Source of the DNA: Gemmatimonadota bacterium | GTDB taxonomy: Bacteria; JBHIER01; G020348925 | Reading direction: 5' to 3' | Assembly: GCA_020348925.1 (NCBI GenBank) | Contig: CP070758.1 | Span: 979,788-1,016,471, forward strand | Length of the DNA stretch: 36,684 bases | Shown here: positions 1,042-28,857 of the stretch, piece by piece | How positions within the stretch are numbered: position 1 is the stretch's first letter | Layout: every line of letters starts with the position of its first letter | Position numbers and translations under genes: made by a program | Notes under the pieces: generated by a model | The model's database searches: none | Told to the model about the DNA's origin: nothing | What the model saw: only the letters and a program-made list of their open reading frames with translations

Positions 1042-3525
1042 TCAGGGTCTACATTCACCTATACCTAAAATCACATTGACAATTCCTACAGCATCTAAAA
1101 TATTGACTGTTTCATCTCCATTACAATCAGCAGCCCAATTCTCAAGTTCAGAGAGTGGATCTCCAGTCTCCAAAATAATATTGACAACTCGAACTACATC
1201 CAGAATGTTTATCTCCTCATCGGAATTGACATCTCCTCTGACAAGTGTAGTTTTCGATAGGACATAATCTCCGGCGATTACTGAAAAGTACACACATTTC
1301 CCTTCGATTGTCGACGATCCTAAGATAATGGGGATCTCATCTTTTTTGATAACCCATGTTCCGGGATCAAGATTGCAGACGAGAACCTTGACACTGTCTG
1401 AACCTGGAATGGTCAGTGATAACTGTTCGGTCAATTCAATCCCGCTTTTGCTGAAGCAAACCACGCGATCAAGAATTCTGGCACCGACCAATTGAACACT
1501 TTCAATGAGCCCCACTGCAGGATTATTCGTTGTCGTGACATCCATGACGGTCATGACATGTAAGAAGAGATCCTCGGCTCGACCTGCGCCAGGTGATACC
1601 TCCACACGCCACATACCATTCTCGTAATCATAATTACCCCCCTGAGGATCTGGCGGATAGTTCTGGTTCTCATATTCCACCCAGCAATCATATCCCGGGC
1701 CACCAATTTTTTGTAAAGTTGCATCCGACGGTAACAGACTTTTCACAACAAGTTTCCCTGAATACTTACCTGCACCATGAGAAGGACCATACCAGTAATG
1801 TGAAGCAGTCCGTTGAATAGTGATCGTATTTTCATCTATGGATGGTTCTTCGATGGAATGAATCTGCCACGTTTTTTTAAATGATGCATTCGAGGAAACA
1901 ACTCTATCGAAAATAATCAAGGTTGCCGGATATGTGGAATCAAAGTGGTTCAGCATGACCATAGATCGTTTCACGTCAGATACTTTTGGTGTCGGCTGGT
2001 TGGAATAGGCAGGAGTGAGATCTCCCCCGATGTAGCTGTAATCCGGTGTATTGGGATCGGGTCCGAACTGGCGTCCAATAATGTAAGCTTTTCTGAAATT
2101 GTCCAGCAGATCATCGTAATCCTTGGGTTTGGTCTCGTATGTTCCCCACGGAGGTTGACAGATTTGTCCTCCATCATTGGCCGTGTATGCGCCTCCTGAT
2201 CCATATGTCATATCTTCATTGGGATCAAGAATGAGCAGCACGTTGTGCGATTGGCTTTTCTCATGGTAATTGTTATCGTGGGCTGTTTTATCCTGATAGC
2301 ACCCTGTGGAAAGTGCCAGGGCACCCTTGTAATAAATCTGGAAACCTCCGAAGTGTCCTGGATTTGTATGACCTTTGAAATCGCATCCGCCCATCTCCAT
2401 AGTGACAACCGCATCATCGCTTTCTTCGTTGAGCCAATCCCAACCGGTGCGGGCAATCATCACAGCCATTGGATCTGGAAAGTATTTTGTCAACGGTAAA
2501 TCTGTAAGCGGGGAACTGGCAAGACCGGACGGACGAAATACAAATTCGAAAACTTTCTCCATATCATGAGACCCATCGTTTGAAGCTGCATAGTACGCAT
2601 ACCAGGAATTGTCACCGAGACCCGTCAGATAAGGATTATCCCAATACATCGCCATTGTCCGAAAAATCGGCCCTTTCTTGCCGGCGTTTCCTTTCAAGTC
2701 ATACCGGTCACCACGTTTAAACTGCCTTCCATCAGGACGTGTGTTATATATTGTACCGTATGGTACATATTGCATGTCGGATGTATACACGTCCCCCGCA
2801 CCCAGTTTCCTGCAGAACCATGCATTGTAGCAATCGTTGATGAATCTACCGACATATGAGTCGCCTTGCCAGTACATGTGTATTTTATAGAGTTCGTTTC
2901 GAGCCGGTATAAATTTATCCCAGTGGAGTGCTATGGCAGCATCCCACATTGTCGGACTTTCATCATAGATGGCACAGCCCGCAATGAGTTGAGAAAGTTG
3001 CACATTCGACTCCGCAATATGACCGACGATGACACTGTATGGATTATAGTCTGCCGGATAGCCGGGTGCTTCGGTATCAGCCAGACGCTCGAACTCAGCA
3101 ATGAAGTCGTTCTTTTGGGACGTACTCAGGAGATCATAACACCAGTCATAGACGCAGGCAGCACGGTTCATGATGTTGCTCGATTTATTTATCGAAACGC
3201 TTGTACTTGGTTTATTTATTATGGCCATTAATGCTTCACTCACCGCCCAGTTTCCTTTCGTCGAGTTTCCGTCCACTAAATACAACAACGCAGCGGACAG
3301 AAAATGTGTATTGGACAATGAGACAATATTGTTCCAGAGACCCTGAAACTCAGGATCGGATTTCTTACTTTGAAGCTCGACGACATCTGACGGTGTGATG
3401 AATACCCGGGGATGCTCGGATGGTACTGGGGGATATTCCGAAGCGACTACCTTACTATTGGGAAAGACTGTCAAGGCCAATATAATCGCAATTAAATAAT
3501 GAAGAGTAGATATAGTAGACTTCAT
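1042..3525 (-). CDS. Secreted heparinase II/III-family lyase (PL21-like) with C-terminal dockerin
   Basis: This is an 827-residue predicted polysaccharide lyase that should cleave uronic acid glycosidic bonds by beta-elimination outside the cytoplasm. The start is placed at the ATG at 3525 because it begins a clear Sec signal peptide (about residues 1-28) and follows the upstream stop by 32 bases; the open frame extends further, into that upstream gene. An alpha/alpha-toroid-like half is followed by the heparinase II/III beta-sandwich (GHTNPGHFGG, then SQSHNVLLI). GHIAES (H169, E172) and Y224 in GDSYVGRF have the same spacing as the heparinase II active-site set His202, Glu205 and Tyr257, known from the literature, so PL21 is the best guess. 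A two-repeat type I dockerin fills the last 64 residues (bases 1045-1236). It is the last gene of the locus. The exact substrate is open. Confidence 0.8.
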   Translation of the reverse strand: MKSTISTLHYLIAIILALTVFPNSKVVASEYPPVPSEHPRVFITPSDVVELQSKKSDPEFQGLWNNIVSLSNTHFLSAALLYLVDGNSTKGNWAVSEALMAIINKPSTSVSINKSSNIMNRAACVYDWCYDLLSTSQKNDFIAEFERLADTEAPGYPADYNPYSVIVGHIAESNVQLSQLIAGCAIYDESPTMWDAAIALHWDKFIPARNELYKIHMYWQGDSYVGRFINDCYNAWFCRKLGAGDVYTSDMQYVPYGTIYNTRPDGRQFKRGDRYDLKGNAGKKGPIFRTMAMYWDNPYLTGLGDNSWYAYYAASNDGSHDMEKVFEFVFRPSGLASSPLTDLPLTKYFPDPMAVMIARTGWDWLNEESDDAVVTMEMGGCDFKGHTNPGHFGGFQIYYKGALALSTGCYQDKTAHDNNYHEKSQSHNVLLILDPNEDMTYGSGGAYTANDGGQICQPPWGTYETKPKDYDDLLDNFRKAYIIGRQFGPDPNTPDYSYIGGDLTPAYSNQPTPKVSDVKRSMVMLNHFDSTYPATLIIFDRVVSSNASFKKTWQIHSIEEPSIDENTITIQRTASHYWYGPSHGAGKYSGKLVVKSLLPSDATLQKIGGPGYDCWVEYENQNYPPDPQGGNYDYENGMWRVEVSPGAGRAEDLFLHVMTVMDVTTTNNPAVGLIESVQLVGARILDRVVCFSKSGIELTEQLSLTIPGSDSVKVLVCNLDPGTWVIKKDEIPIILGSSTIEGKCVYFSVIAGDYVLSKTTLVRGDVNSDEEINILDVVRVVNIILETGDPLSELENWAADCNGDETVNILDAVGIVNVILGIGECRP

Positions 3526-3557
3526 GTTTTTTACTTCTTCGTTGGTGTAGGTTTTAT

Positions 3558-4727
3558 TCACCTCACATCTGAATAAAAATAGTGAAATTCTGTATCCCAT
3601 CCATCTAGACTGTCGAATCTCTTTTGTGGACACTCATTAATAGGGAAAAGTATCTCAGTTTTATCCCCGTAGTTATAATAAACCAATCTTAAACGTTTTC
3701 TTCTTTCCTGCTGGTTAAGGAACAAGGAAAATTCTGCCATATTCAAGGGGCCTTCTTCACCCAGATATGCGCCAAGAATATTATAGGTTAAGTCTATCCA
3801 TACCCACTGGTTCAACTGGTCATCGAATATTTCTGTGGTGGAATGCATACCTCCCATCCTGACGCTGAATTTATCGGATCTTAAATGAACCTTTTCCAGG
3901 TGAATTCTGCGAGCAGGAATTCCAAAAGAATTGCAGGCGTGAATAAAAATATGAGCAAGATTTGTACAAAAACCTTTGTCTTTTCCTGAAACCATTCGCT
4001 CGTACTGCTCAAAAGGCGGCACCTTCATTGAATCAGATGGTACACCAACATGATGCTTGAGATCATCCATTAAAGTTCTTGCCAACAATTTGGCCTTTTC
4101 GTAATTTGTATCAACACTCTTGATGAGTTCTCCCCATTTTTCTTCAGCGTATCGTTTTTCTTCGGTTTTCGGACTCTTATATATCCAGTTATCAATCCTA
4201 CAAGAAGGAGTAAAGTTCAGGTACGGATATGTTTTGACAGTGATCCAATTCGGATACCCCATTGCTCCCTTTGATGCCCAATATTTATTTGCATTACAGA
4301 GAAGCGTAATTGTATAGGGCTGTGATAAAGATCCATCTTTGGTAACCATTTTGACAACGATATTGGCTTCTTGGGTAGAACTTACATCTGTTCTAAAATC
4401 AGCCACTATAATACCTTCGAGAGATTTTTGATAATCTGACCGGTTGGTTGAAATAAGGAAGTGAGAAAAGTCTCTCAAATGTGGATCCAAGGTCAATTGA
4501 ATTGCAATTTCATCACTGGGAATTTCCTCAATTGATTTTATTGTCAACTCTTCCCGTCCCTGGTAATAATTCCCGTAAAGACTTTTCAATTCTGTTTTTA
4601 TTTTTTTTCTTTCTACATTTTCTTCTTTTTTATCCAAATGAGAAATTATGGAATGTTGTGCGGCACAGAAAACCGCAAAGCAAATTCCAAAAATCAAAAC
4701 TATTTGATAAAACATTCTATGAAACAT
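3558..4727 (-). CDS. Secreted transglutaminase-like (papain-fold) protein
   Basis: The 389-residue protein begins with a hydrophobic signal segment (about residues 6-23). After a region without a recognisable fold it has a transglutaminase-core-like domain. GFCTNLAHIF places a catalytic Cys at 254, GMHSTTEIF a His at 295, and WVWIDLTYN an Asp at 312, the order and spacing expected of the Cys-His-Asp triad. Bacterial members are often proteases or peptide-modifying enzymes and rarely true cross-linkers, so the reaction is unknown. The ATG is preceded by AAAGGATG at good spacing. It lies 127 bases after galK and 32 bases before the PL21-like lyase, so it may start a small two-gene unit. Its role in glycan use is unclear; processing of glycoprotein substrate or of co-secreted proteins is possible. 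Confidence 0.75.
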   Translation of the reverse strand: MFHRMFYQIVLIFGICFAVFCAAQHSIISHLDKKEENVERKKIKTELKSLYGNYYQGREELTIKSIEEIPSDEIAIQLTLDPHLRDFSHFLISTNRSDYQKSLEGIIVADFRTDVSSTQEANIVVKMVTKDGSLSQPYTITLLCNANKYWASKGAMGYPNWITVKTYPYLNFTPSCRIDNWIYKSPKTEEKRYAEEKWGELIKSVDTNYEKAKLLARTLMDDLKHHVGVPSDSMKVPPFEQYERMVSGKDKGFCTNLAHIFIHACNSFGIPARRIHLEKVHLRSDKFSVRMGGMHSTTEIFDDQLNQWVWIDLTYNILGAYLGEEGPLNMAEFSLFLNQQERRKRLRLVYYNYGDKTEILFPINECPQKRFDSLDGWDTEFHYFYSDVR

Positions 4728-4854: not shown

Positions 4855-6042
4855 CTATTCTATTTTTACTCCCTCAACCGCTTGAGAAACGTATATTTCA
4901 GGTTGTAGTCCCGTTTCTTTTGGATAAATATCAAAAATCTTTTGCTTGAAGATTGGCACCGACTCTTTCTCAACCAGGTTTACTGTGCATCCACCAAATC
5001 CCGCTCCAGTCAATCGTGCCCCTAGTACGCCGGAAACATTCCGGGCAATAGTTACGAGGGAATCCAGTTCTGAACAACTCACCTCATACAGATGATTAAG
5101 GCTTTCGTGCGATTCATTCATTAATTGTCCAAATTTATTCATGTCACCTACTTTCAGAGCATGCACTCCATTGAGAACTCTTTGGTTTTCGCTAACAACG
5201 TGTCCGCACCGAACTCCAATCGGATGTGGCAATTTTTCCCATTGTCTCATTAAATCTTTAATCCCAACATCCCTCAAGGTCTCTACATCAGGCATATATT
5301 TATTCAATATTTTGACGCCCTCTTGACATTCGGCGCGTCTTTGATGGTATGCAGAATTCGCCAAACCGCGAGGTTTGTTTGAATTGCAGATAACAATGTT
5401 ACACCTGTCCAAATCGAGAGGTATATGTTCATATTGTAAGCTCTGACAGTCAAGGAAAAGCGCGTGGTTTTTCTTAGCTAATCCGGAAGTAAACTGATCC
5501 ATTATACCGCATGGGACACCGACGAAATCGTTTTCTGCTTTTTGAGCTAAATCGACCAATTTGTCGACTTGAATTCCAAGATTAAATAATTGGTTAAAAG
5601 AAAAAGCAACAGACATCTCGAGTGCAGCAGAAGAGCTCAGACCGGATTCCAGGGGGACATCGCCACCTATCACAAGATTTGCTCCAAGCCCGGTTTCAAA
5701 TCCTTCTTCAGTGAATGTTGCCAACACTCCCTTGACATAGTTTACCCATCTTCTCTCGGTATCAATGCTCAGTTCCTTTACTGAAAATTCAACTTTCTGT
5801 TCGTAATTCCAGGAATAGATACACATATTTCCATCCGTTCGAGGAGAAGATGCCACATAAATTCTCCGATCAATCGCCATGGGTAACACAAAGCCATCAT
5901 TGTAATCCGTGTGTTCTCCGATAAGGTTTACACGTCCCGGAGCTGAAACGAATACACATGGTTGTCCTTCGAATATATCGCAAAAAGTGTTGCGAAGTAT
6001 AGATTTCATGTCGGATCGGTTTTCTTTCACTTTAACTCCCAT
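4855..6042 (-). CDS. galK: Galactokinase
   Basis: A 395-residue GHMP-family kinase that phosphorylates alpha-D-galactose with ATP to galactose-1-phosphate in the cytoplasm, the entry step of the Leloir pathway. The galactokinase signature GRVNLIGEHTDYNDG lies at residues 36-50. The phosphate-binding loop GLSSSAAL is near residue 135, the catalytic Asp is in CGIMDQF, and the third GHMP motif LTGAGFGGC is near the C-terminus. Length is normal for the family. The ATG at 6042 overlaps the end of galT by 11 bases (ATGGGAGTTAA), which suggests translational coupling. An internal ATG at 6009 is a possible alternative start, since neither site has a strong ribosome binding site. Confidence 0.95.
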   Translation of the reverse strand: MGVKVKENRSDMKSILRNTFCDIFEGQPCVFVSAPGRVNLIGEHTDYNDGFVLPMAIDRRIYVASSPRTDGNMCIYSWNYEQKVEFSVKELSIDTERRWVNYVKGVLATFTEEGFETGLGANLVIGGDVPLESGLSSSAALEMSVAFSFNQLFNLGIQVDKLVDLAQKAENDFVGVPCGIMDQFTSGLAKKNHALFLDCQSLQYEHIPLDLDRCNIVICNSNKPRGLANSAYHQRRAECQEGVKILNKYMPDVETLRDVGIKDLMRQWEKLPHPIGVRCGHVVSENQRVLNGVHALKVGDMNKFGQLMNESHESLNHLYEVSCSELDSLVTIARNVSGVLGARLTGAGFGGCTVNLVEKESVPIFKQKIFDIYPKETGLQPEIYVSQAVEGVKIE

Positions 6043-7009
6043 CTGATCTGATTGAGATTTCCCTCAACTCCTGTGCTCGTTCCTCGGGGAGGGTGTCATT
6101 GATAAAAGTTCCTGCTCCCATTTCGCAACCAGCCAGATACTTCAGCTTTTCCCGACTCCGATAGGGGGGATAAAATTCCACGTGGAAATGATAAAAACTG
6201 TAGTCCTTTCCGTCTGTGGGAGCCTGGTGCATAACCATCATGTAAGGAAAAGAAAAGCCAAATAAGTTATCGTACTTTTGGAGTACTATTTTCAAAATGT
6301 GAGCAAAATCTTCGATCATGTTTTCACTGAAATCCAACAAAGTCAATACATGGTTTTTCGACATAATGTGCACCTCGTAAGGATATCTGGCAAAAAAGGG
6401 TATGAAAGCGAAGAAGGATCGATTCTCCACAATTTTTCTCTTTCCCTCTCTCTTTTCTTCATTCAAGATATCACAGAATAAGCAGTTCGGTTTTCTTTTC
6501 ACGTATCCTTTCGCTGATTTCAATTCTCTTTCAATGACTGGAGGGATATATGGAAAAGCGTAAATCTGTCCGTGTGGGTGAGGCATGGTTACACCGATGA
6601 CGTCCCCTTTATTTTCGAAAATAAACACATATTTAATCTCTTCTCGTTCCCCCAATTTTTGAAATCGCATGCTCCACAATCCGATCAGCTCTACGATACG
6701 GGGAATCTCCATGTCAGCCAATGTCATCAGATGATCAGGATGATACAGGACTACATCACATACCCCGACCGATTTCTTCACCTTGTACAGGTTCGGGCGA
6801 CGGTTCTCGGGCTTAGGCGATGACAATGAAAATGTGGGAAAATCATTGGGGTAGATGTACACGTTATAATCGTCCGGTACTTTTCCTGATCCCGGACAAA
6901 ACGGACAATAATTCTCCGGCATTTGGGGTCGGTTTTGGCGGTGTGTCGCGATAGCCACCCACTCCTCGAGAATTGGATTCCAGCGAAGTTCAGACCTTGT
7001 TCTCTTCAT
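6032..7009 (-). CDS. galT: Galactose-1-phosphate uridylyltransferase
   Basis: This 325-residue HIT-superfamily enzyme transfers UMP from UDP-glucose to galactose-1-phosphate, giving UDP-galactose and glucose-1-phosphate. A zinc-type CPFC pair is at C35 and C38. The nucleophile motif HPHGQ is at residues 144-148, with the second His (146) as the expected catalytic base for the uridylyl intermediate. A further Cys pair LFCDIL and the C-terminal HFHVEFYPP complete the family pattern. It sits 12 bases after the symporter gene and overlaps galK, so the three are probably co-transcribed. No galE or galM is in this window, so the epimerase must be encoded elsewhere if the pathway is complete. Confidence 0.95.
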   Translation of the reverse strand: MKRTRSELRWNPILEEWVAIATHRQNRPQMPENYCPFCPGSGKVPDDYNVYIYPNDFPTFSLSSPKPENRRPNLYKVKKSVGVCDVVLYHPDHLMTLADMEIPRIVELIGLWSMRFQKLGEREEIKYVFIFENKGDVIGVTMPHPHGQIYAFPYIPPVIERELKSAKGYVKRKPNCLFCDILNEEKREGKRKIVENRSFFAFIPFFARYPYEVHIMSKNHVLTLLDFSENMIEDFAHILKIVLQKYDNLFGFSFPYMMVMHQAPTDGKDYSFYHFHVEFYPPYRSREKLKYLAGCEMGAGTFINDTLPEERAQELREISIRSDGS

Positions 7010-7021
7010 AGTGCGATTTTT

Positions 7022-8650
7022 TTAGAAGAACCGAATATATAAGAACACGATCATTGCTATCAAGACAATACTCCAAGTCTTGAATCGGTAATACCACGGA
7101 ACGGTTTTCAAAAAAGATTGATCCTTCTCAGCGAGAGACCTATCGATCATGGCCTTATCCGGAATTCCTTTTTCTCGAACTCTGAAAAACCAGATAATAA
7201 GGCAACAGAAAAGAAAGTCAATACCGGCGCGATTCAGAAAAGCGAGTTTTGGAATAATCCCGGCTGATTCTACAATAGTAAACAGAATTGCCCATATTGG
7301 TCCGGCCACAATAGTAATGAGACATCCTTTGGCATTTGCCCTCTTATAGAAAAAACCTGCCAGAAAAACAGCAACGACTGCCGGCCAGGCAATTGACCAG
7401 AATTTCTGAATGTACGTGAATATTGCGGTTAAATCTCTGAGAAAATATCCGAAGACGGTTGCAACGATCAAGACTGTAAACGTCGTCACTCGTCCCAAAC
7501 GAATTAAATCACGGTTTTCCGCATCTCTTTTCAAGTGACGTTTGTAGATATCAAATGTAAAGATGGATGAACTGGAAGTTAAGAGTGAAGCAATAGTAGA
7601 CATTACGGCTCCCATGAGACCGGCCATGACCAATCCGGAGATACCTGCCGGTAATAATCTCTTGACCAGTGTCGGAAAAGCAAGGTCGGCCTTCGAGAGA
7701 GCAAACTCCTGGCTCAACAGACCGGTCGCAGGATCATATAGTCTGAATGCAATAATTCCGGGGAGAACGACGAGAATGGGAACGATTAATTTCAAATATC
7801 CGGCGAAAACGACACCCATCTGTCCATGCCACACATTTCTTGCCGCCAGTGTTCTCTGGGTGATGAACTGATTACATCCCCAGTAAAAGATGTTTGCCAG
7901 CCACATCCCTCCGAAGAAAACACCAATCCAGGGCAATTCTGGGTGATTCCAAGATTGGACCATATGGAATTTTCCCGGTGAGCCAGCTACGATGGCCTTC
8001 AGACCCCCCAGGATAGTATTACTGTACTCCGGAGTTGCAGCCCCTACCTTCAGTAATCCTATTATTGTAACTGCAATCCCACCCAGCATCAAGACTGTAA
8101 CTTGAATGATATCTGTATATGCAACAGATCTCAATCCGCCATAGATAGTATATCCGCCTGCAACAATACATAAAATGGCCAGACCGTAAACCAGCGGTAA
8201 TCCAAAAATGGATTCCATCGCCAAAGAACCTGTGTAAAGTACTACTGCAAGCTCGATAAAGATGTAGCCCACAAGACTGATAACGGCAAATACCAATCTC
8301 ACCTGTTGATTAAAACGTTTCTCCAGGAATTCGGGCATCGTCGTTATTTTCGTTTTCAGATAATAGGGTAAAAAGAATTTCCCATATATAATCAGAGCAA
8401 TCGCAGCAATCCATTCATAGCTGGCGATGGCAAGGCCTATTGAGAAACCCTGTCCGGACATACCAACAAAGTGGTGTGTCGATATATTGGCTGCTATTAA
8501 GGAACCTCCGATAATCCACCACGGCAGGTTTCTACTGGCTAAGAAATAATCGTCCGATTCAGTTTTTTTTCGTGAGACCAAAATTCCTACTGCCGCCACA
8601 CATATCAGATACAATGCGAATATGATCAAATCCAAATTCACATTTTCCAT
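7022..8650 (-). CDS. Sodium/solute symporter (SSS family), probable galactose transporter
   Basis: The 542-residue protein is an inner-membrane transporter with about 13-14 hydrophobic helices spread over its full length and very few large loops. The N-terminal pattern (ESDDYFLASRNLPWW, then ISTHHFVGMSGQGF) and YTDIIQVTVLMLGG in the middle are typical of the SSS/SGLT family, which couples sugar uptake to sodium entry. The specificity for galactose is inferred from the adjacent galT and galK, 12 bases downstream, and from the galactosidase-type hydrolases in the locus. A good AAAGGGGAT ribosome binding site precedes the ATG at 8650. The 131 bases before it hold no gene and could contain a promoter. 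Confidence 0.85.
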   Translation of the reverse strand: MENVNLDLIIFALYLICVAAVGILVSRKKTESDDYFLASRNLPWWIIGGSLIAANISTHHFVGMSGQGFSIGLAIASYEWIAAIALIIYGKFFLPYYLKTKITTMPEFLEKRFNQQVRLVFAVISLVGYIFIELAVVLYTGSLAMESIFGLPLVYGLAILCIVAGGYTIYGGLRSVAYTDIIQVTVLMLGGIAVTIIGLLKVGAATPEYSNTILGGLKAIVAGSPGKFHMVQSWNHPELPWIGVFFGGMWLANIFYWGCNQFITQRTLAARNVWHGQMGVVFAGYLKLIVPILVVLPGIIAFRLYDPATGLLSQEFALSKADLAFPTLVKRLLPAGISGLVMAGLMGAVMSTIASLLTSSSSIFTFDIYKRHLKRDAENRDLIRLGRVTTFTVLIVATVFGYFLRDLTAIFTYIQKFWSIAWPAVVAVFLAGFFYKRANAKGCLITIVAGPIWAILFTIVESAGIIPKLAFLNRAGIDFLFCCLIIWFFRVREKGIPDKAMIDRSLAEKDQSFLKTVPWYYRFKTWSIVLIAMIVFLYIRFF

Positions 8651-8781
8651 TCTTATCCCCTTTCAGTTTAATTCAAAGGACTTCATTATTCTTGCTGTCG
8701 ATCTCCTTCGATTTGCACTATCGAATTGAAATATATCATTTCAACTTATATACTTAAAAATGATTAATCTCATAACAGTTG

Positions 8782-10022
8782 TCATAAAAGTATCCCACAG
8801 CATTTCTTGACTTTTATTCCACTTCCACAAGGGCAAGGGTCATTCCGGCCAACTTTCATCTTGCTTCGATTTCTTGATTTCATCGGTTTTTCTTGATTAA
8901 GAACATCCTCCTGCTGTCTTTTCCAAACTTCAGCAAGTTGCAGTAATTTTGCATGTGCATGTTCGAAAAATAGTTTATATGATCGACAAAAATAGTTGAG
9001 TGTGTTGTCATATGGATTTCGGTTGCGATCTTTCGTGCAGCCGCCTCTGCAAAACTCCACCCACTCACACTTCTTACATACTTTGGAAAGATCGGCTTTC
9101 ATTCGACCAAATTCATATTGGCGTTTGGAATTTAACATCACTGTCAAATTCTTTTGCATCACGTTTCCAAGCTTCCAATCAGATTCAACAAAAAAATCAC
9201 ACGAATACACATCACCATTATGCTCCACAACGACATAAACACCACAGGCAGGCAACAGTGTGCAATCAGGGGGATTTAAATCTACATAACGATAGAAAAG
9301 TGAATCAAAGTACCGAATGAACGTTGTTGGAGTACCTTCCTCAAAATCAGCCATCCACAAATTAAACAGCACACTCAGAAAGTTGCCATACTTTTCAGCG
9401 GACACAGAATATGAAGCCGGTTGAGTTGAATCACTGGAATTCGGTTCAAGACAGGGAATGAATTGCATGTGAGTCACCCCCAAATCCTTGTGGAATTCAT
9501 AGATCTCTTGGGGGTATTTGACCGAATAATCGTTCACAACCGTGAGCGTATTGATGGCCACACCGGCATCGAGCATACGCTTGGTACTTTCAACCACTCG
9601 AGACCATGAACCCCGCCCACCTCTCATTCGGCGATAGCGATCGTGGATGTGTTCAAGACCATCCAATGATAACCCAACCAGGAAGTTGTATGTATTGAGG
9701 AATTGAGTCCATTGGTTTGAAAACCGTTTCCGATCGTTTGATCACTTCCATACCGTTTCTGGAATTCAATCGCTTTTTCAAAGAACGTGAGACCCATCAG
9801 TGTTGGTTCTCCTCCTTGCCAACAGAAGGAAATATTTTCACCTGCCTGGATCATAGTTTGACGAATCGTCTCTTCCAAGATTATTTCGCTCATACGATGG
9901 ATTTCCGTATTTGAGAAGAGCTCTTTCTTATCAAGATAGAAACAGTATGTGCAAGCCATGTTGCAATCCGGACCAGCCGGCTTTATTAATAAAGAGTCCA
10001 ATTGTTTTCTGCTGTTGTCCAT
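8782..10022 (-). pseudogene. Anaerobic sulfatase-maturating enzyme (radical SAM/SPASM) with frameshift
   Basis: The intact enzyme would oxidise the active-site Cys of a sulfatase to formylglycine. The N-terminal part (9714-10022 is the useful stretch) has the radical-SAM cluster motif CNMACTYC (C20, C24, C27) and ends with GFQTNG; beyond that its frame gives nonsense to 9624. The C-terminal part resumes in another frame at TGG 9709-9711 with [18 protein letters not shown] and DRYRR. It continues through a SPASM-type Cys-rich region ([18 protein letters not shown]) and a SEC-C zinc motif ([15 protein letters not shown]). The junction lacks about seven residues normal for the family, pointing to a deletion of about 22 bases; AATGGA at the break could be the surviving copy of a short direct repeat. 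A sequencing error is the alternative. It follows the sulfatase by 13 bases. Confidence 0.85.
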
Positions 10023-17696: not shown

Positions 17697-18938
17697 TTAC
17701 TCTCCTTGTGTATCGAGTATAGACTCATGCCCCTCTCTTTCCACTGAGGTAGACTCAGACCTGAAGGTTTCCGAAGTACACCCGCCAATTCCCAAAACCA
17801 CATTTACAATCCCCAGAGCATCGAGCATATCAATCTGCTCATCTCCATTGCAGTCGGCTCGCTGAAGAGCATTCTCATCCAATACTTGAATACTCAAAAT
17901 ATGGTTCACTATGGCCAGAACGTCCAGTATATCAATACTTTCATCACCGTCCACATCGCCTATGATGATACTTCCCGTTTTTCGATTCGGAGTATAAAAC
18001 TCCTCGTCATATACCGTACCCTCTCTCAAATAATGTCTCAGGCGCAGGCTGTCCGCCCCCACTGTTAATTCAGTATATCCATAATGGTTACTGTTTTTAC
18101 CGTAAGCCGCGACGAAGTAGCCGTTGCCGTCATGGTTCGGTTCGGGTATATCAATGGGTGCACCACCATTTCCTGTTACAACCTGGACTGTACCGTTTTC
18201 AGGATCGAGGGGGGGATTTTTCTCACCATTCAATTGGAGTTTCTTTGACCTCACATAATAATGAGCGTGCCCGGTAAAAATGATATCACATCCGTTTTGG
18301 TACAGAGGGATCCCCCAGGTATCGTGTATGTCGTCCTGATAACTTTTTTCTCCGAAATCGAAGATAGGGTGATGCCAGAAGGCGAAGAGCCACGTTTTCG
18401 GATTATTCTCAATAGCATCCAGGAGCATGGTATATTGCGTGCCGGTTTTCGAGGACTTATCCGAATCCAGAATGACAAACCGGGCATTCTCGTAATCAAA
18501 AAAGAAGAATTTCCCCTCGTTCCCGTACTGTTCCACCTGGCCTGAGAGATACAAATTCCAGTTTGTTAATCCGCTAATTGTCTCTGTATTGTCATGATTT
18601 CCAGGAGCTGCCATGTATTGCGGCGGGATGAAGTCCTGGTCAAAACCACCCAAAACACTTTTCGTTTCCTGGTAAAAACCTTCCCATTCACTCCGGTTAT
18701 CTCCATGATCGACAACATCCCCAACGTTGATGATAAATACATAATCCGGAGTATTCACCACCATCGATTGCATGATCTGTTTATGCTGGGTGCGGGGTGG
18801 ATTATTTCTGGTATCACCGTAAGCAATCCACTTCCATGAGTCCGCATTTATAGATAGAGGCATAAGAATAAAAAGTAAGAGCAATGAAGCTCCAAAATAC
18901 ATACAGCCAGGAAGATACTGTCCATTTCTCAAATTCAT
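17697..18938 (-). CDS. Secreted metallophosphoesterase with C-terminal dockerin
   Basis: A 413-residue calcineurin-like phosphoesterase that probably removes phosphate from an unknown extracytoplasmic substrate. A signal peptide occupies about residues 1-32. The five metal-binding blocks are present in order: YGDTR, NVGDVVDHG, PGNHDN, FWHHPIF and FTGHAHYY. Residues 327-387 (bases 17778-17960) form a two-repeat type I dockerin (GDVDGDESID and DCNGDEQIDMLDALG) ending in GIGGC, then a polar tail of 26 residues. It lies 24 bases after the PL12-like lyase and one base before GH2. It resembles the other phosphoesterase of this locus in its catalytic part, but that one is a lipoprotein without a dockerin. 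Confidence 0.87.
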   Translation of the reverse strand: MNLRNGQYLPGCMYFGASLLLLFILMPLSINADSWKWIAYGDTRNNPPRTQHKQIMQSMVVNTPDYVFIINVGDVVDHGDNRSEWEGFYQETKSVLGGFDQDFIPPQYMAAPGNHDNTETISGLTNWNLYLSGQVEQYGNEGKFFFFDYENARFVILDSDKSSKTGTQYTMLLDAIENNPKTWLFAFWHHPIFDFGEKSYQDDIHDTWGIPLYQNGCDIIFTGHAHYYVRSKKLQLNGEKNPPLDPENGTVQVVTGNGGAPIDIPEPNHDGNGYFVAAYGKNSNHYGYTELTVGADSLRLRHYLREGTVYDEEFYTPNRKTGSIIIGDVDGDESIDILDVLAIVNHILSIQVLDENALQRADCNGDEQIDMLDALGIVNVVLGIGGCTSETFRSESTSVEREGHESILDTQGE

Positions 18939-23549: not shown

Positions 23550-26500
23550 CTACTTTAACAACATCATCTTCATCGTTTTGGTGAAAGACCCGGCATTAAG
23601 CCGATAGAAATAGACTCCACTGGATACTTCACTCCCGTCCTCGCCCCTGCCGTCCCAGCGAACAACGTGATATCCTATGGGCTGTTTCTCATTGACAAGG
23701 GTTTTCACCTTCTGTCCCAAGACATTATACACCACCAACTTCACCGGACTCTCCTTGGCGAGGGCATAATCAATCGTTGTCACCGGGTTGAAGGGATTGG
23801 GATAGTTCTGGGCCAGGCTGTATTCAATCGGAAGATTCATAGCCGATTTGACCAATGCCATAAATGCAGCAAAATCCTCAGGCGAAAGGTAGGTCTTCAA
23901 TGACTTCAGGAACTCCAAGGTCTCGGAATTGAACGCTGCCTTTGCACCGGCTGGTGGGCACGTACCTGTACCAAGGATTACGTTCACAATACCCAATGCA
24001 TCCAGAACGTCGATCTCACCATCCATGTTGCAGTCCGCCAGAACTAAGCCTTCACCCTCAAGAGGTGCAGTACCCAATATGTGGTTCACCACGCCCAGAA
24101 CGTCAAGAACATCGACGACACCGTCACCATTGCAATCACCCGCAATCCCCCCACTCCCACTCCAGGTTCCCCAGCGAGGATCGCCCAGATTTGTCCCATC
24201 GGAAGCCGTTCCGACGCCGAGACAACTCTCCACTATGGCCAGATCGAGGGTCGCAGAAGATGTGTCCTTGAACATCGGATCGTCTTCGAAGTTGAAGATC
24301 GGGAAAGTGAGTGTGGTATCATCCTCTGAAACGATGTTCTCAGCACATTCCCAGAACATGTTATACTCGACCGTTGGAGAAGGTCCGTACACACGCACAC
24401 CTTCCGCCGCCTGATTGACAAATATGTTGTCCCGGATGACAACCATTGTATCGTTCTCGGCGTGAATCCCGATATTGCTCGTACGACCGCTTACAGTGGG
24501 GTCATTGTAAAAGAAGGTACAGTGCGACACCTCTAAGTCTCCTACGTTATTAAGACGGATATTGTTCTGACCAACTTTATAGAAGGTGCAATTCGTAATT
24601 CTCGCTACACCCACGTTGCGAGCATCGTGTTTGCCGTATATACCGGTCTCACCGATCTCCTTGAAGAGACAGTTGTTAACGATCAGGGTATCCGTATAGT
24701 TGTTGTCATTCATGTGAATGGGTCTCAGACGATACCCGACGAACTCGCAATCCTCAATAACAACTGTACCGAAATCGTCGGCCTCGTCATTGAAATAGAT
24801 GCCGTACGGTATTCCATTCTCAACTATTCCATCACCCTCTATTCTCACACCTTTGATGGTTATCGGTCCATAGATTTTGTATCGGGACTCGTTGAAGGCA
24901 GCTTTCAGCACAGGCTTTTCGGATAATCCGGGCTTGGCCATCAAAACCAGGGGTATTGCCGGAAAGCTGAACTTTACGGAAGAGTAATAAACTCCCCCAT
25001 CTGTTGTCAGCGAGATCGTGTCTCCGGCAGTCAGGTGCTCTTTAATCGGCACGAACCAGTCCGTACCCGCTTCAACTTCCCAGCGTGTCACAGCGGATGG
25101 ATCGGTAATTCCCCATCGGGGATCGCCCATGTTGCCACCATCAGAAGCCGTACCGATACAAGGAGATGTCATTACATTCAACGCCAATGAAAAGTTGTCA
25201 ACAGACGTGTCCTCAAATCCAGGATTGGCGTAAATATTCCCAACAGTGGAGACATTTGTGGCGTCAGCGTCATCGATGTCCAAAGCGTTATCCCAGAAAC
25301 AATTGAACTCCACCTCGGGGTCAGATCCATAAACCTTCACACCAGCCACGCCGCAGGACATGAAGATGTTATCCCTGATAACCGTCCCGTTAACGTGATC
25401 TTTGGGGTAGATTCCCCTTTGGCCGACATTGTAAAAAGTACAATTAGTGACCGTCAACGGACCACCGCCTTCGACAATGTAAATGGCGTGGTTATTGAGA
25501 TTCCAGAAGGAGCAATTGGTGATGGTGGCCGTATTGACGAGCCCCGATGTCTCTTTGAAGTAGATGGGAGGATTATTCGCATCGTGAAACACGCAGTTGT
25601 TGACGACGAGGTTGTCGATAATCGGCTCCTTGGAAACGATGGCGTTTCCGCGCATGTTGTAGAAATCGCAATCCTCTAAAACCACGAAGTCAACAGGCTT
25701 GTTCTGATAGAGCATTCTGTATGTCGAGTTGTCCCCGTTCTCCGCATAGAGCCCGTCAAATGCCAGACCGATGACCGTCAAGTTGTCATTCACCTTGCCG
25801 ACGTATCCCCCATCGTTGGTGGATAATACCGGCTTGTTTGTCAATCCCGGTGCGGCCATCAGCACCAGCTCTTGGCTGGGTATATAGCCTGAAGCCGGGG
25901 TCATGTAACTGCCGCCGTCGGTGACAAACACGACCGTATCACCTTCGGTCAGGACATCCTTGATATTGTTAATCCAGTTATTGTTTGCCTGGATCTCCCA
26001 GAGGGTGACAGCATCAGCGTCGTACGTTCCCCATCGCGTATCACCCATATCCCCGCCATCGGAGGCTGTGCCGATGCAGGGAGAGGTGAGAGCAAGGGCA
26101 AGGGAAATATCATCACCATACGTATCCTCGTACCATGGATTGGCGAAGATGTTCCCCGTGGGAAATGTCAGCGTCGTGTCGTCCGACTCGATATACGTTT
26201 CTGTCGTATCGTTCCAGAAGCAGTTGTACTCCACAATGGGATCCGTACCGTAGGCCTTCACACCGCTGGTGCCGCACATCATGAAGATGTTGTCCCGAAT
26301 CACTAAGCCATTGGTACAGCTTAACGGATAGACACCTCGTCCGGCAATGCTGAGAAAACTGCAGCTTGAGACCTCCACCGTGTCCTCAGCACCACTGAAA
26401 TACAGAGCATGTGAATTCGCATTCCAGAAGGAGCTGTTGGTAACCTTGACGTACTTGATGAGTCCGGGATTGTCTTTGAAATACAACGGGCTGCCGTTGA

Positions 26501-27020
26501 TATCCCAAAACGAGCAGTTGTTTACAATGATGGTATCTGTGATCGTTGACTTCGACGTGATGGCTCTTCCTCTTATGTTATAAAAATCACAGTCCTCCAC
26601 CACAAGCTTTTCGATATTCTTGTTGAGATAAAGAATCCGGTATGTGCCACCGTCTCCGTTTTCATCGTGTAAACCGTTAAAGGCAAGCCCAGAGATCTTT
26701 AAGTTGCCATTCACCTTACCGATATAACCCGGATCGTTGGTGGACAGAACCGGCTTGTTGACCAATCCCGGCGCGGCCATCATCACTAAGTTTTTTGAAG
26801 GAAAATATCCTGAGTTCGGGGTCATGTAGCTTCCCCCGTCCGTGACAAACATGATCGTGTCACCATCCGCAACCAAGCTCGAGATGGGCGCAAGCCAGTC
26901 ATCGCTCTCTATGACTTCATGCACGGTGGCAAAAACGGGCGTCGTCATCACAAATATGACAGCCGCCATGATGAGAAAAGAGAACAAATTCACCTCTTTT
27001 CCAAAAAATTTCCACTTCAT
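23550..27020 (-). CDS. Triple-unit beta-helix protein with dockerin and T9SS sorting domain
   Basis: A 1156-residue secreted protein, probably displayed on the surface. Of two adjacent ATG codons the second (27020) is better spaced from GAGGTG; the first is at 27023. After a signal peptide (to about 32) come three tandem units of 306 residues (counted from the first ATG: 36-341, 342-647, 648-955). Each opens with an EGDT-x-x-F-TDGG-like strand, has right-handed beta-helix rungs (VVNNCxFxD, VIRDNIFM) and ends with CIGTASDGG and GDPRWG. Units 1 and 2 are close; unit 3 is diverged. A dockerin (961-1018) and a T9SS type A domain (1065-1157, NYPNPFNPVTTI to MKMMLLK) follow. Beta-helices of this kind bind or cleave acidic polysaccharides; I see no certain catalytic residues, so binding or lyase activity both remain possible. 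Confidence 0.88.
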   Translation of the reverse strand: MKWKFFGKEVNLFSFLIMAAVIFVMTTPVFATVHEVIESDDWLAPISSLVADGDTIMFVTDGGSYMTPNSGYFPSKNLVMMAAPGLVNKPVLSTNDPGYIGKVNGNLKISGLAFNGLHDENGDGGTYRILYLNKNIEKLVVEDCDFYNIRGRAITSKSTITDTIIVNNCSFWDINGSPLYFKDNPGLIKYVKVTNSSFWNANSHALYFSGAEDTVEVSSCSFLSIAGRGVYPLSCTNGLVIRDNIFMMCGTSGVKAYGTDPIVEYNCFWNDTTETYIESDDTTLTFPTGNIFANPWYEDTYGDDISLALALTSPCIGTASDGGDMGDTRWGTYDADAVTLWEIQANNNWINNIKDVLTEGDTVVFVTDGGSYMTPASGYIPSQELVLMAAPGLTNKPVLSTNDGGYVGKVNDNLTVIGLAFDGLYAENGDNSTYRMLYQNKPVDFVVLEDCDFYNMRGNAIVSKEPIIDNLVVNNCVFHDANNPPIYFKETSGLVNTATITNCSFWNLNNHAIYIVEGGGPLTVTNCTFYNVGQRGIYPKDHVNGTVIRDNIFMSCGVAGVKVYGSDPEVEFNCFWDNALDIDDADATNVSTVGNIYANPGFEDTSVDNFSLALNVMTSPCIGTASDGGNMGDPRWGITDPSAVTRWEVEAGTDWFVPIKEHLTAGDTISLTTDGGVYYSSVKFSFPAIPLVLMAKPGLSEKPVLKAAFNESRYKIYGPITIKGVRIEGDGIVENGIPYGIYFNDEADDFGTVVIEDCEFVGYRLRPIHMNDNNYTDTLIVNNCLFKEIGETGIYGKHDARNVGVARITNCTFYKVGQNNIRLNNVGDLEVSHCTFFYNDPTVSGRTSNIGIHAENDTMVVIRDNIFVNQAAEGVRVYGPSPTVEYNMFWECAENIVSEDDTTLTFPIFNFEDDPMFKDTSSATLDLAIVESCLGVGTASDGTNLGDPRWGTWSGSGGIAGDCNGDGVVDVLDVLGVVNHILGTAPLEGEGLVLADCNMDGEIDVLDALGIVNVILGTGTCPPAGAKAAFNSETLEFLKSLKTYLSPEDFAAFMALVKSAMNLPIEYSLAQNYPNPFNPVTTIDYALAKESPVKLVVYNVLGQKVKTLVNEKQPIGYHVVRWDGRGEDGSEVSSGVYFYRLNAGSFTKTMKMMLLK
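24159..26918 (-). repeat. Three tandem coding units of about 918 bases
   Basis: The beta-helix gene contains three head-to-tail units at 26001-26918, 25083-26000 and 24159-25082. Units 1 and 2 share long stretches, for example GDT-V-FVTDGGSYMTP, APGL-NKPVLSTND and SPCIGTASDGG; unit 3 keeps the frame of the pattern but has diverged. This indicates internal duplication, with unit 1/2 the more recent or more constrained pair. Confidence 0.85.
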
Positions 27021-27109
27021 CATACACCTCTTTTCGTTATCGATGTACCTCTCGCATTACTACTTTCTATGCATAAAAACATCGCGATTGTAAACCGTAA
27101 TTTCCTCAT
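27020..27109 (-). CDS. Small ORF, 29 residues, coupled to the beta-helix gene
   Basis: The ATG at 27109 follows AGGAAAGGAG with four bases between, an excellent ribosome binding site. The product starts MRKLRFTIAMFLCIESSNARG, short and partly hydrophobic like a stunted signal peptide. Its TGA (27020-27022) overlaps the ATG codons of the beta-helix gene, and its own ATG overlaps the stop of the ORF before it as ATGA. This layout argues for translational coupling. Whether the peptide itself has a role, or only its translation matters, cannot be seen. I recognise no family. Confidence 0.5.
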   Translation of the reverse strand: MRKLRFTIAMFLCIESSNARGTSITKRGV

Positions 27110-27234
27110 TTGTCTCCTTTCCTGGTAAACAATTTGACAGTTTCCCACGGATCCATATCCAAGTATAATGGTGATGGTGTATCACCCCCTTTCACTATTT
27201 CGTTTTCACTTGAACAATTTTCGTTACGTTTCAC
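27106..27234 (-). CDS. Small ORF, 42 residues, GTG start
   Basis: A GTG at 27234 lies eight bases after AAAGGAGGG, a strong ribosome binding site. The ORF encodes 42 mostly polar residues, including ENCSSENEIVKGGDTPSP and DMDPWETVKLF, without a signal peptide or membrane segment. Its TGA overlaps the next ATG (ATGA). An ATG two bases further upstream with respect to the same site is followed at once by TGA, so a start-stop unit in another frame is the competing reading. It lies 63 bases after the propeller lipoprotein gene. Function unknown. Confidence 0.5.
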   Translation of the reverse strand: MKRNENCSSENEIVKGGDTPSPLYLDMDPWETVKLFTRKGDK

Positions 27235-27297
27235 ATCTGCGGCCCTCCTTTCTCCTATTCTCACCTTACCTATTACACCTCAAACAGTCATTACACT

Positions 27298-28857
27298 CTA
27301 TTCATCTCCGGTCGTAAACGTAGAATTCCAATTCGTTTCAAATGAGTTGCCATGAATATCCTCGGCACCATACCTGTTGTACTCTTGAAACGTCTCTCTG
27401 TCATCCTCAAAGGTCCCAAGGACCCTCACCTGATATTTGGTAACTGCTCGAAGGAGTTCTGTCGGTGTGAAGACCATTTTCGTGGCAGGGGGATTGGGAT
27501 CAACCGGTGGCTCTCCTTGTCGTCCCCCGGCTTCCCAGACTACCAACGCTCTGTCGTATATATAGGGGAACAGAATGGTCGTGTCCATGGTGGTCGGATT
27601 CAAAGGGGCAATAACCACTGTGGAATCCTGCCATGTCTCAAAATGGTACGAGCCTTCGATGCGTAAATTTTCGATAGGCAAATTATTCCTCGTCGCCCAG
27701 AGATTTCCCTGATCATCACTGCGATATATTCCGGATGAAGTTGCGGCATATATACGCTCCGGAACCAACGGATTGCTCACCAGCATTGAAAGAGTTGTTG
27801 AAGGTGGAATGTTGCCCGTGGCAAGCCAACTCTGACCTGCATCAAAACTCTGAAAGATTCCACCACCCGTGCTGATCACAACTGTACTGATATTCTGAGG
27901 ATGCAGGACAATAGATTGAATTTCCAGGTTGGTTAATCCTGAATTCATCATAGTCCAATTGGAACCGCCGTTTTCTGTTTTATACATTCCACCCCCATCT
28001 GAACCGGCAAAGACCAAGGCGGTATCTTGTGGATGTATGGCAAGAGTATTGAAATTGAATGTAAATAAACCTGTTCTCAGCCTTGTCCAGCTCTCACCCC
28101 CGTTCATACTCTTCAGGATAAAATCACCCTGAGTAGCGGCATACAGGGTATGTGAATCAAGGGGATTTATCACGATATTCCGGGGTCCTCTGCTCGGATT
28201 CACCCCATTATTTTTTGCACTCCAGCTCACTCCGCCATTATCAGATTTGTAAATGCCGGTTGAATTCATGGCAGCGTAAATTATGTCTTCATTCGTGGGA
28301 TCAACGGCGAGAGCCAAAACGTTCATTTCGGGTAACCCGTTGCTTATTTGCTGCCAAGTAGCACCTGCATCCAGGCTCCTATAGATACCGCTGTCACTGG
28401 TCGCAGCATACAATAGATTTGAATTCCGGGATACGACCAGATCTGTCAAGACCATCTGCATCGTTAATGGAGTAAGCCAAAACCATGACTCGGCCCCGTC
28501 TTCACTCTTAAATATTCCTTTTCCCGCAGTGGCTGTATATATAATACTCGGATTGTTCTGATCGATTGCAATAACAGGTGTGGATCCGATAGTAATGGAG
28601 GACCACATCCAGAAATTCTCTATGACCGAGGCCTCATTCATGAGTTCGTCAAACCAGATCGTAACAGTTGTGTTTCTGGGAACATCAGTCGCAGTACCTA
28701 CTGGAACACGATGTTCCACACCCGGTCTTCGCACATCTTCAGCTACATAGTCGGGATCGGTTGGCACACGTTTTTTGGAACAGCCGGCAAGACACAAGAA
28801 TATGAATATTATTATGAGTAAAGCTATGAATAGAATAACAGTATTTTTTAACCTCAT
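27298..28857 (-). CDS. Lipoprotein with Asp-box propeller inserted in an Ig-like domain
   Basis: A 519-residue predicted outer-membrane lipoprotein: the leader ends in CLAGC with the lipidated Cys at 26. Residues 47-90 look like the first half of a bacterial Ig-like (Big_5/SbsA type) domain (VPRNTTVTIWFDELMN). Residues about 95-400 contain seven Asp-box repeats of the type GIYRSxDxGxxW, the mark of sortilin/BNR-like beta-propellers. Residues about 460-517 look like the second half of the Ig-like domain (TKYQVRVLG, AEDIHGNSF, FTTGDE). Such propellers usually bind glycans or proteins; enzymatic activity is not suggested. GAGGAGAG precedes the ATG. Position between the PorV-like gene and the beta-helix gene suggests a surface glycan-binding role. 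Confidence 0.8.
   Translation of the reverse strand: MRLKNTVILFIALLIIIFIFLCLAGCSKKRVPTDPDYVAEDVRRPGVEHRVPVGTATDVPRNTTVTIWFDELMNEASVIENFWMWSSITIGSTPVIAIDQNNPSIIYTATAGKGIFKSEDGAESWFWLTPLTMQMVLTDLVVSRNSNLLYAATSDSGIYRSLDAGATWQQISNGLPEMNVLALAVDPTNEDIIYAAMNSTGIYKSDNGGVSWSAKNNGVNPSRGPRNIVINPLDSHTLYAATQGDFILKSMNGGESWTRLRTGLFTFNFNTLAIHPQDTALVFAGSDGGGMYKTENGGSNWTMMNSGLTNLEIQSIVLHPQNISTVVISTGGGIFQSFDAGQSWLATGNIPPSTTLSMLVSNPLVPERIYAATSSGIYRSDDQGNLWATRNNLPIENLRIEGSYHFETWQDSTVVIAPLNPTTMDTTILFPYIYDRALVVWEAGGRQGEPPVDPNPPATKMVFTPTELLRAVTKYQVRVLGTFEDDRETFQEYNRYGAEDIHGNSFETNWNSTFTTGDE

Follow-up and report, generated by a model that had tools for sequence, protein, structure and literature searches.

Upstream of a gene for a large exported beta-helix protein in a Gemmatimonadota genome lie two small overlapping open reading frames (ORFs), each with a strong ribosome-binding site, raising the question of whether the leader encodes small proteins, controls translation through its reading frames, or carries a different kind of signal. 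The genome is 5.04 Mb in size and is scaffolded, with 100-N gaps; the window, i.e. the whole 36,684-nt stretch of DNA that was analysed, is one contig. The beta-helix protein is a T9SS cargo comprising a signal peptide, Beta_helix/DUF4957/DUF5123 repeats, a type I dockerin module, and a Por_Secre_tail (Table 1). Its gene follows a gene for a lipoprotein-like BNR/sortilin-repeat protein; further upstream lie a PorV-like gene, a gene for a 792-aa protein, a TonB receptor gene, and a LacI regulator. The gap between the BNR gene and the beta-helix gene is a 274-nt leader, which holds the ORF chain and is present as a single copy in its own genome. Dockerin-like modules are found in several secreted proteins of the locus, and dockerin and T9SS tail sequences occur at many further places in the genome. 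Elsewhere in the window, an anSME-like radical SAM sulfatase maturase gene that adjoins a sulfatase gene is split into overlapping out-of-frame ORFs, pointing to a frameshift or an assembly error.

Table 1. Features of the beta-helix locus (positions in the window; anti-SD energies computed against an assumed standard 16S tail)
Feature	Position	Strand	Details
Secreted protein with dockerin-like module	1042..3633		
Split maturase gene	8782..10022	-	132 + 294 aa
Secreted protein with dockerin-like module	17697..18938		
Beta-helix T9SS cargo gene	23550..27023	-	1157 aa; dockerin-like module
Beta-helix gene SD	27025..27035	-	GAAAAGAGGTG; -13.1 kcal/mol
ORF2	27109 (ATG) to 27020 (TGA)	-	29 aa, MRKLRFTIAMFLCIESSNARGTSITKRGV; AAGGAG 4 nt upstream
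SD-like motif 3	27113..27122	-	GGAAAGGAGA; -13.4 kcal/mol; RBS of ORF2
Small hairpin	27170..27186	-	GGTGAT-ACACC-ATCACC; would partly mask motif 2
SD-like motif 2	27181..27193	-	GAAAGGGGGTGAT; -22.7 kcal/mol; strongest in leader
ORF1	27234 (GTG) to 27106 (TGA)	-	42 aa, VKRNENCSSENEIVKGGDTPSPLYLDMDPWETVKLFTRKGDK; AAGGAGG 9 nt upstream
ATGTGA start-stop	27231..27236	-	ATG at 27236, 7 nt from ORF1 SD
SD-like motif 1	27243..27252	-	GAAAGGAGGG; -17.0 kcal/mol; ORF1 SD
BNR/sortilin-repeat gene	27298..28857	-	519 aa, lipoprotein-like; upstream of beta-helix gene

The two-ORF chain in front of the beta-helix gene is real. In particular, the 42-codon GTG ORF (ORF1) and the 29-codon ATG ORF (ORF2) claimed in the initial annotation are present with strong ribosome-binding sites, ORF1 and ORF2 overlap by ATGA, and the end of ORF2 overlaps the beta-helix start within ATGATGA, as had been claimed. 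The beta-helix start is either ATG 27023 or ATG 27020, of which the latter is better spaced from GAGGTG. The start of ORF1 is less clear-cut. The ATG of the ATGTGA sequence is better spaced from the ORF1 Shine-Dalgarno sequence (SD) than is the GTG and is directly followed by TGA, which reduces the third overlap to a one-codon start-stop and leaves the GTG start in doubt. A second in-frame GTG is located upstream of the ORF1 start at 27264 (52 aa, SD GAGGTG).

To assess how improbable such a chain is, we counted chains in 316 gaps of at least 100 nt (~0.8 Mb of the genome) and in dinucleotide shuffles of the leader in which the ATGATGA start was kept, with SD strictness defined as the minimum number of matched bases. 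These gaps hold 20 single chains at SD>=4 and 6 at SD>=5; double chains number 2 and 1, respectively, the last being the chain of the window. A double chain arises in shuffles with P = 9e-3 (SD>=4), 1e-3 (SD>=5), and 5e-5 (SD>=6); when the SD motifs are held fixed, P = 1.2e-3 (SD>=5) and 2.5e-4 (SD>=6), which counts against a leader in which the motifs alone matter. Almost half (48%) of the genome's ATG starts continue as ATGA, so the overlaps are cheap and a preceding frame will often end in that TGA; the rare part is the combination of an SD with an open frame, and the strong SDs are what is unusual about the chain. On a chance reading, the genome uses SDs, the leader is rich in purines, and the ORFs end by coincidence in ATGA, a ubiquitous sequence. 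Such a reading would fit the frequency of double chains at SD>=4 (2 of 316 leaders, 0.9% of shuffles), and the chain was selected post hoc from one window. Nevertheless, all members of the chain have strong SDs, and strong upstream SDs are non-random genome-wide in signal-peptide leaders (see below); we consider chance an improbable explanation.

The initial annotation had proposed that the two ORFs might encode small proteins working together with the beta-helix protein, and both have good ribosome-binding sites, with a hydrophobic start in ORF2. The codon usage of ORF1 is ambiguous, with a log-odds of 0.012 per codon, at the low end of the coding range (9.4% of gene windows are as low and 19.5% of non-coding windows as high; genes, 0.126 +/- 0.094). 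The codon usage of ORF2 is non-coding-like, with a log-odds of -0.114 per codon (0.5% of gene windows are as low and 68% of non-coding windows as high). No relatives of either peptide above chance were found in the own genome, in 290 other genomes (a set composed of genomes from outside the host phylum), or in Pfam, PHROGs, and NCBIfam. Together with the absence of the ORFs from homologous loci, described next, these results leave functional small proteins very unlikely.

We obtained syntenic loci by searching genome contigs with the TonB receptor; the beta-helix protein as a query of the genome contigs gave no match. The gene order TonB - 792 aa - PorV - BNR - beta-helix is common to loci from Melioribacteraceae (L100), Thermochlorobacteriaceae (L098), and Neomarinimicrobiota (L099), the beta-helix frame of the last leaving the contig end, and the BNR/beta-helix pair is also present in another Neomarinimicrobiota genome (L135), in a KSB1 genome (L137), and in an own-genome paralogue (L072). 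The BNR gene is thus kept as immediate neighbour in five other genomes and one paralogue. The gap between the two genes is 133 nt (L134, the same locus as L099) and 146 nt (L135) in the two Neomarinimicrobiota genomes, 70 nt in Melioribacteraceae (L136, the same as L100), 13 nt in Thermochlorobacteriaceae (L138, the same as L098), 191 nt in KSB1, and 152 nt in the paralogue. The closest BNR homologue (49%; CP070656.1, L133) was left out, having a 100-N assembly gap 152 nt after the BNR stop. The beta-helix paralogue (L072 5446-9030 (-)) is itself broken by a single in-frame stop into parts 8050-9030 and 5446-8049.

An SD-preceded ORF of at least 10 codons is present in 0 of these 6 gaps, and no uORF is conserved in position or sequence at the homologous loci. 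Frameshifts or missing ribosome-binding sites in the leader at homologous loci that keep the beta-helix gene had been named beforehand as the outcome that would refute the annotation's reading, and the six syntenic leaders, none of which has such a chain, provide that outcome, with the caveat that identity to the relatives is low (BNR ~26-40%, beta-helix ~23-31% outside the tail). At such distances (about 25-40% protein identity), a lineage-specific uORF function may still exist. Two of the six leaders do contain tandem 16S-complementary motifs, AAAAGGGAGGTGATT and AAAAGGGAGGTGAAT in L137 and GAAAGGAGGTGATT and GAAAGGGGGTGGTC in the paralogue, in neither case with an ORF of 10 codons behind them; the motif is missing from the other 4 of the 6 readable leaders, a point against a reading based on the motifs.

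These comparisons bear on the possibility that ORF1 and ORF2 are translated serially, with reinitiation at ATGA setting beta-helix output and the peptide sequences mattering little. Consistent with serial translation, the strong-SD double chain is rare in shuffles (5e-5 to 1e-3) and unique in ~0.8 Mb at SD>=5, the SD and spacing of ORF2 are good, and regulatory intergenic small ORFs are known, e.g. mgtQ of Salmonella (PMC8092293). Arguing against it, the chain is missing from the six syntenic leaders, a better-placed ATG-TGA competes with the ORF1 start, the beta-helix gene has its own SD, ATGA is common at ATG starts, and the leader has neither an attenuator nor an unusual fold. We regard such serial translation as unlikely, though less so than chance.

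The RNA properties of the leader complete this picture. The predicted fold is ordinary (z 0.14, 0.25, -0.77, and -0.51), no Rfam family matches the leader, the count of terminator-like structures is at chance level, and no alternative RNA structure or attenuator of the kind expected for leader-peptide control was found. The proposal that the leader controls translation is thus partly supported, by the strong ribosome-binding sites and the poor fit of chance, but the marks of leader-peptide control are absent: an attenuator, an unusual fold, an Rfam family, and a conserved uORF.

The leader contains three SD-like motifs in addition to the SD of the beta-helix gene (Table 1); no 16S tail was identified in the 2.4 Mb of the host genome that were read, so the anti-SD sequence used for the energies is assumed. 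Start codons at initiation spacing are an ATG-TGA and a GTG for motif 1 and an ATG for motif 3, and motif 2 has no ATG, GTG, or TTG. Specifically, motif 2 sits inside ORF1, ~170 nt upstream of the beta-helix start, and serves neither ORF; the initial annotation had overlooked it. It has one property of a STAB-SD element, complementarity to the 16S tail (here the assumed tail) far upstream of a start. Most likely, the functional elements of the leader are these tandem 16S-complementary motifs, not the peptides.

A scan of 2.4 Mb of the genome shows that upstream SD motifs are linked to signal-peptide genes. We searched leaders of 80-400 nt for strong SD-like 7-mers, leaving aside the 25 nt closest to the start. 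With signal peptides assigned by a simple hydrophobicity rule and genes by a home-made caller, so that absolute numbers are rough, signal-peptide leaders (n=152) contain 48 sense sites, compared with 15 reverse-strand sites and 12.7 sites after shuffling, and leaders of other genes (n=335) contain 44 sense sites versus 35 and 23.4, respectively. Two or more sites are present in 10 signal-peptide leaders versus 0.8 in shuffles, and in 10/152 signal-peptide genes versus 2/335 other genes (Fisher p = 2.5e-4). In a hold-out of 1.6 Mb that was fetched after the motif idea arose, at least one site is present in 19/98 signal-peptide versus 22/231 other leaders (p = 0.013); for a strict 10-mer, the corresponding 4/98 versus 2/231 (p = 0.067) is only suggestive. 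The best upstream anti-SD energy in signal-peptide leaders also differs between sense and reverse strands (p = 5e-7, for the assumed 16S tail). ATG follows orphan sites more often than background (31% versus 15%), indicating that small ORFs do begin behind some of the upstream SDs.

The beta-helix gene belongs to this class, having a signal peptide and a strong sense-strand SD motif 26-400 nt upstream. Stand-alone GAAAGGRGGTGAT-like motifs precede signal-peptide genes at further loci of the own genome (L050, L072, L073, L076, L078, L083, L085, L086, L153, L162, L171, L186, L196, and L218), and such motifs often have no start codon at initiation spacing. Palindromes of the CCCCTCCTTTTGAAAAGGAGGG type (intergenic, in the L198 and L080 leaders) are a distinct repeat outside the SD class and inflate the loose motif count.

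The motif recurs in other genomes. AAAGGRGGTGRT is present in 44 copies in the own genome, versus 3 for the reversed control; the KSB1 genome that carries L137 has 12 copies versus 1. The four genomes without the motif in the homologous leader (G291, G292, G293, and G296) contain 0-1 copies. The distinct genes behind intergenic copies of AAAGGRGGTGRT encode a signal peptide in 11 of 11 cases, nine of them from six other genomes (G001, G045, G055, G097, G294, and G295), and the intergenic copies in other genomes include two tandem pairs with spacings of 42 and 45 nt. The composite pattern AAAGGRGGTG-N40-70-GGAGG-N5-9-ATG has 159 matches versus 27 for the control in 386 genomes (pattern counts alone, from a table summed by hand). 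Three motif matches in other genomes (L235, L250, and L255) lie antisense to the 16S rRNA end and were set aside. Other-genome loci with GAAAGGRGGTGAT-like motifs before signal-peptide genes are L241, L242, L243, L246, L249, L254, L256, L258, and L260. In G055, a near-identical leader, AAAGGAGGTGATAGTT...TTAATTGTTTTTT...AAGAAGGAGGTAAAAGATG, is present at five loci (C26, C198, C222, C239, and C317), and both of the loci that were read have, behind this leader, genes for similar proteins with a signal peptide and a carboxypeptidase-regulatory-like start. A partial literature search found no description of orphan SD motifs before exported-protein genes, which is weak evidence of novelty.

The orientation bias and the gene-class association would also fit with GAAAGGRGGTGAT being a DNA element, i.e. 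a promoter or regulator site before exported-protein genes whose SD resemblance is incidental. Three properties argue against a DNA element: the consensus follows the complement of the (assumed) 16S tail for more than 10 nt, with A/G at a wobble-tolerant position; the motif lies at widely differing distances from the start (80-227 nt, median 146); and tandem copies lie 42-97 nt apart across several genomes. Of the explanations weighed here, a DNA element is the one to which we give least credence.

Our preferred reading, to which we assign a probability of about one half, is a leader with multiple SDs that works like STAB-SD by tethering ribosomes or protecting the mRNA; ORF2 may in addition supply ribosomes to the beta-helix gene. 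At least one orphan SD would bind a 30S subunit without starting a gene, and the docked ribosomes would be tethered on, or shield, the mRNA of the large exported protein in STAB-SD fashion. Optionally, ORF2, whose SD is usable, would be translated at a low level, and its ribosomes would be passed to the beta-helix start by termination-reinitiation. The data themselves show the motifs, with their strand bias, their association with signal-peptide genes and their recurrence in other genomes, as well as the lack of ORF conservation; that 30S subunits bind, that the mRNA is protected or loaded with ribosomes, and that ORF2 is coupled to the beta-helix gene is what we infer. In the 48% of the genome that was read, RNase J, the STAB-SD nuclease, was not seen; only one beta-CASP/RMMBL protein was found. 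More tentatively, GAAAGGRGGTGAT, in 1-3 copies 75-230 nt upstream, could be a non-initiating ribosome dock that, in several candidate phyla, marks mRNAs encoding exported and outer-membrane proteins. If so, these mRNAs would be stabilised or pre-loaded, and their handling would be tied to protein export.

The class of orphan SD motifs is more interesting than the ORF chain, and the leader is one example of it. Stand-alone non-initiating SDs are known from a few Firmicutes leaders; if they are a systematic class before exported-protein genes across FCB-type phyla, they would represent a general, overlooked layer of mRNA control. Such orphan SDs would also be a trap for small-ORF annotation, since a start codon behind one looks like a gene with a perfect ribosome-binding site, and the chain of the window illustrates this trap.

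Comparison with known systems places the leader closest to STAB-SD, with partial likeness to three others. ATGA stop-start overlaps couple translation within operons, and the ORF2 stop overlaps the beta-helix start in the same way; unlike in usual ATGA coupling, the upstream ORF has 29 codons, is non-coding-like, and is unconserved, and the beta-helix gene has its own SD. In mgtQ of Salmonella, an intergenic small ORF acts with alternative stem-loops and ribosome-destabilising acidic codons (PMC8092293). The leader here likewise places a small ORF between genes, where it could determine the level of downstream translation, but has no unusual fold or acidic codon run. The mycobacterial katG mRNA has a polypurine stabiliser 4 bp from the start codon (PMC2358910); the motifs here are similarly purine-rich and 16S-complementary, but lie about 170-230 nt upstream, and the link to stability, a finding for katG, is here a proposal. 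STAB-SD is an SD-like 5′ UTR sequence that does not initiate translation but binds the 30S subunit and blocks 5′-3′ decay (PMC4113751, PMC3997798); the element of cry3A and similar Firmicutes stabilisers are attributed to Agaisse and Lereclus 1996, as cited in those two papers. The leader resembles STAB-SD in that a strong 16S-complementary SD, in the case of motif 2 unaccompanied by a start codon, lies far upstream of the start of a gene for an abundant product. In Firmicutes, however, STAB-SD occurs singly, close to the 5′ end of the mRNA, and is directed against 5′-3′ decay by RNase J1, whereas the motifs here number 1-3, sit within what looks like an operon, come from FCB-type candidate phyla, and are statistically tied to signal-peptide genes.
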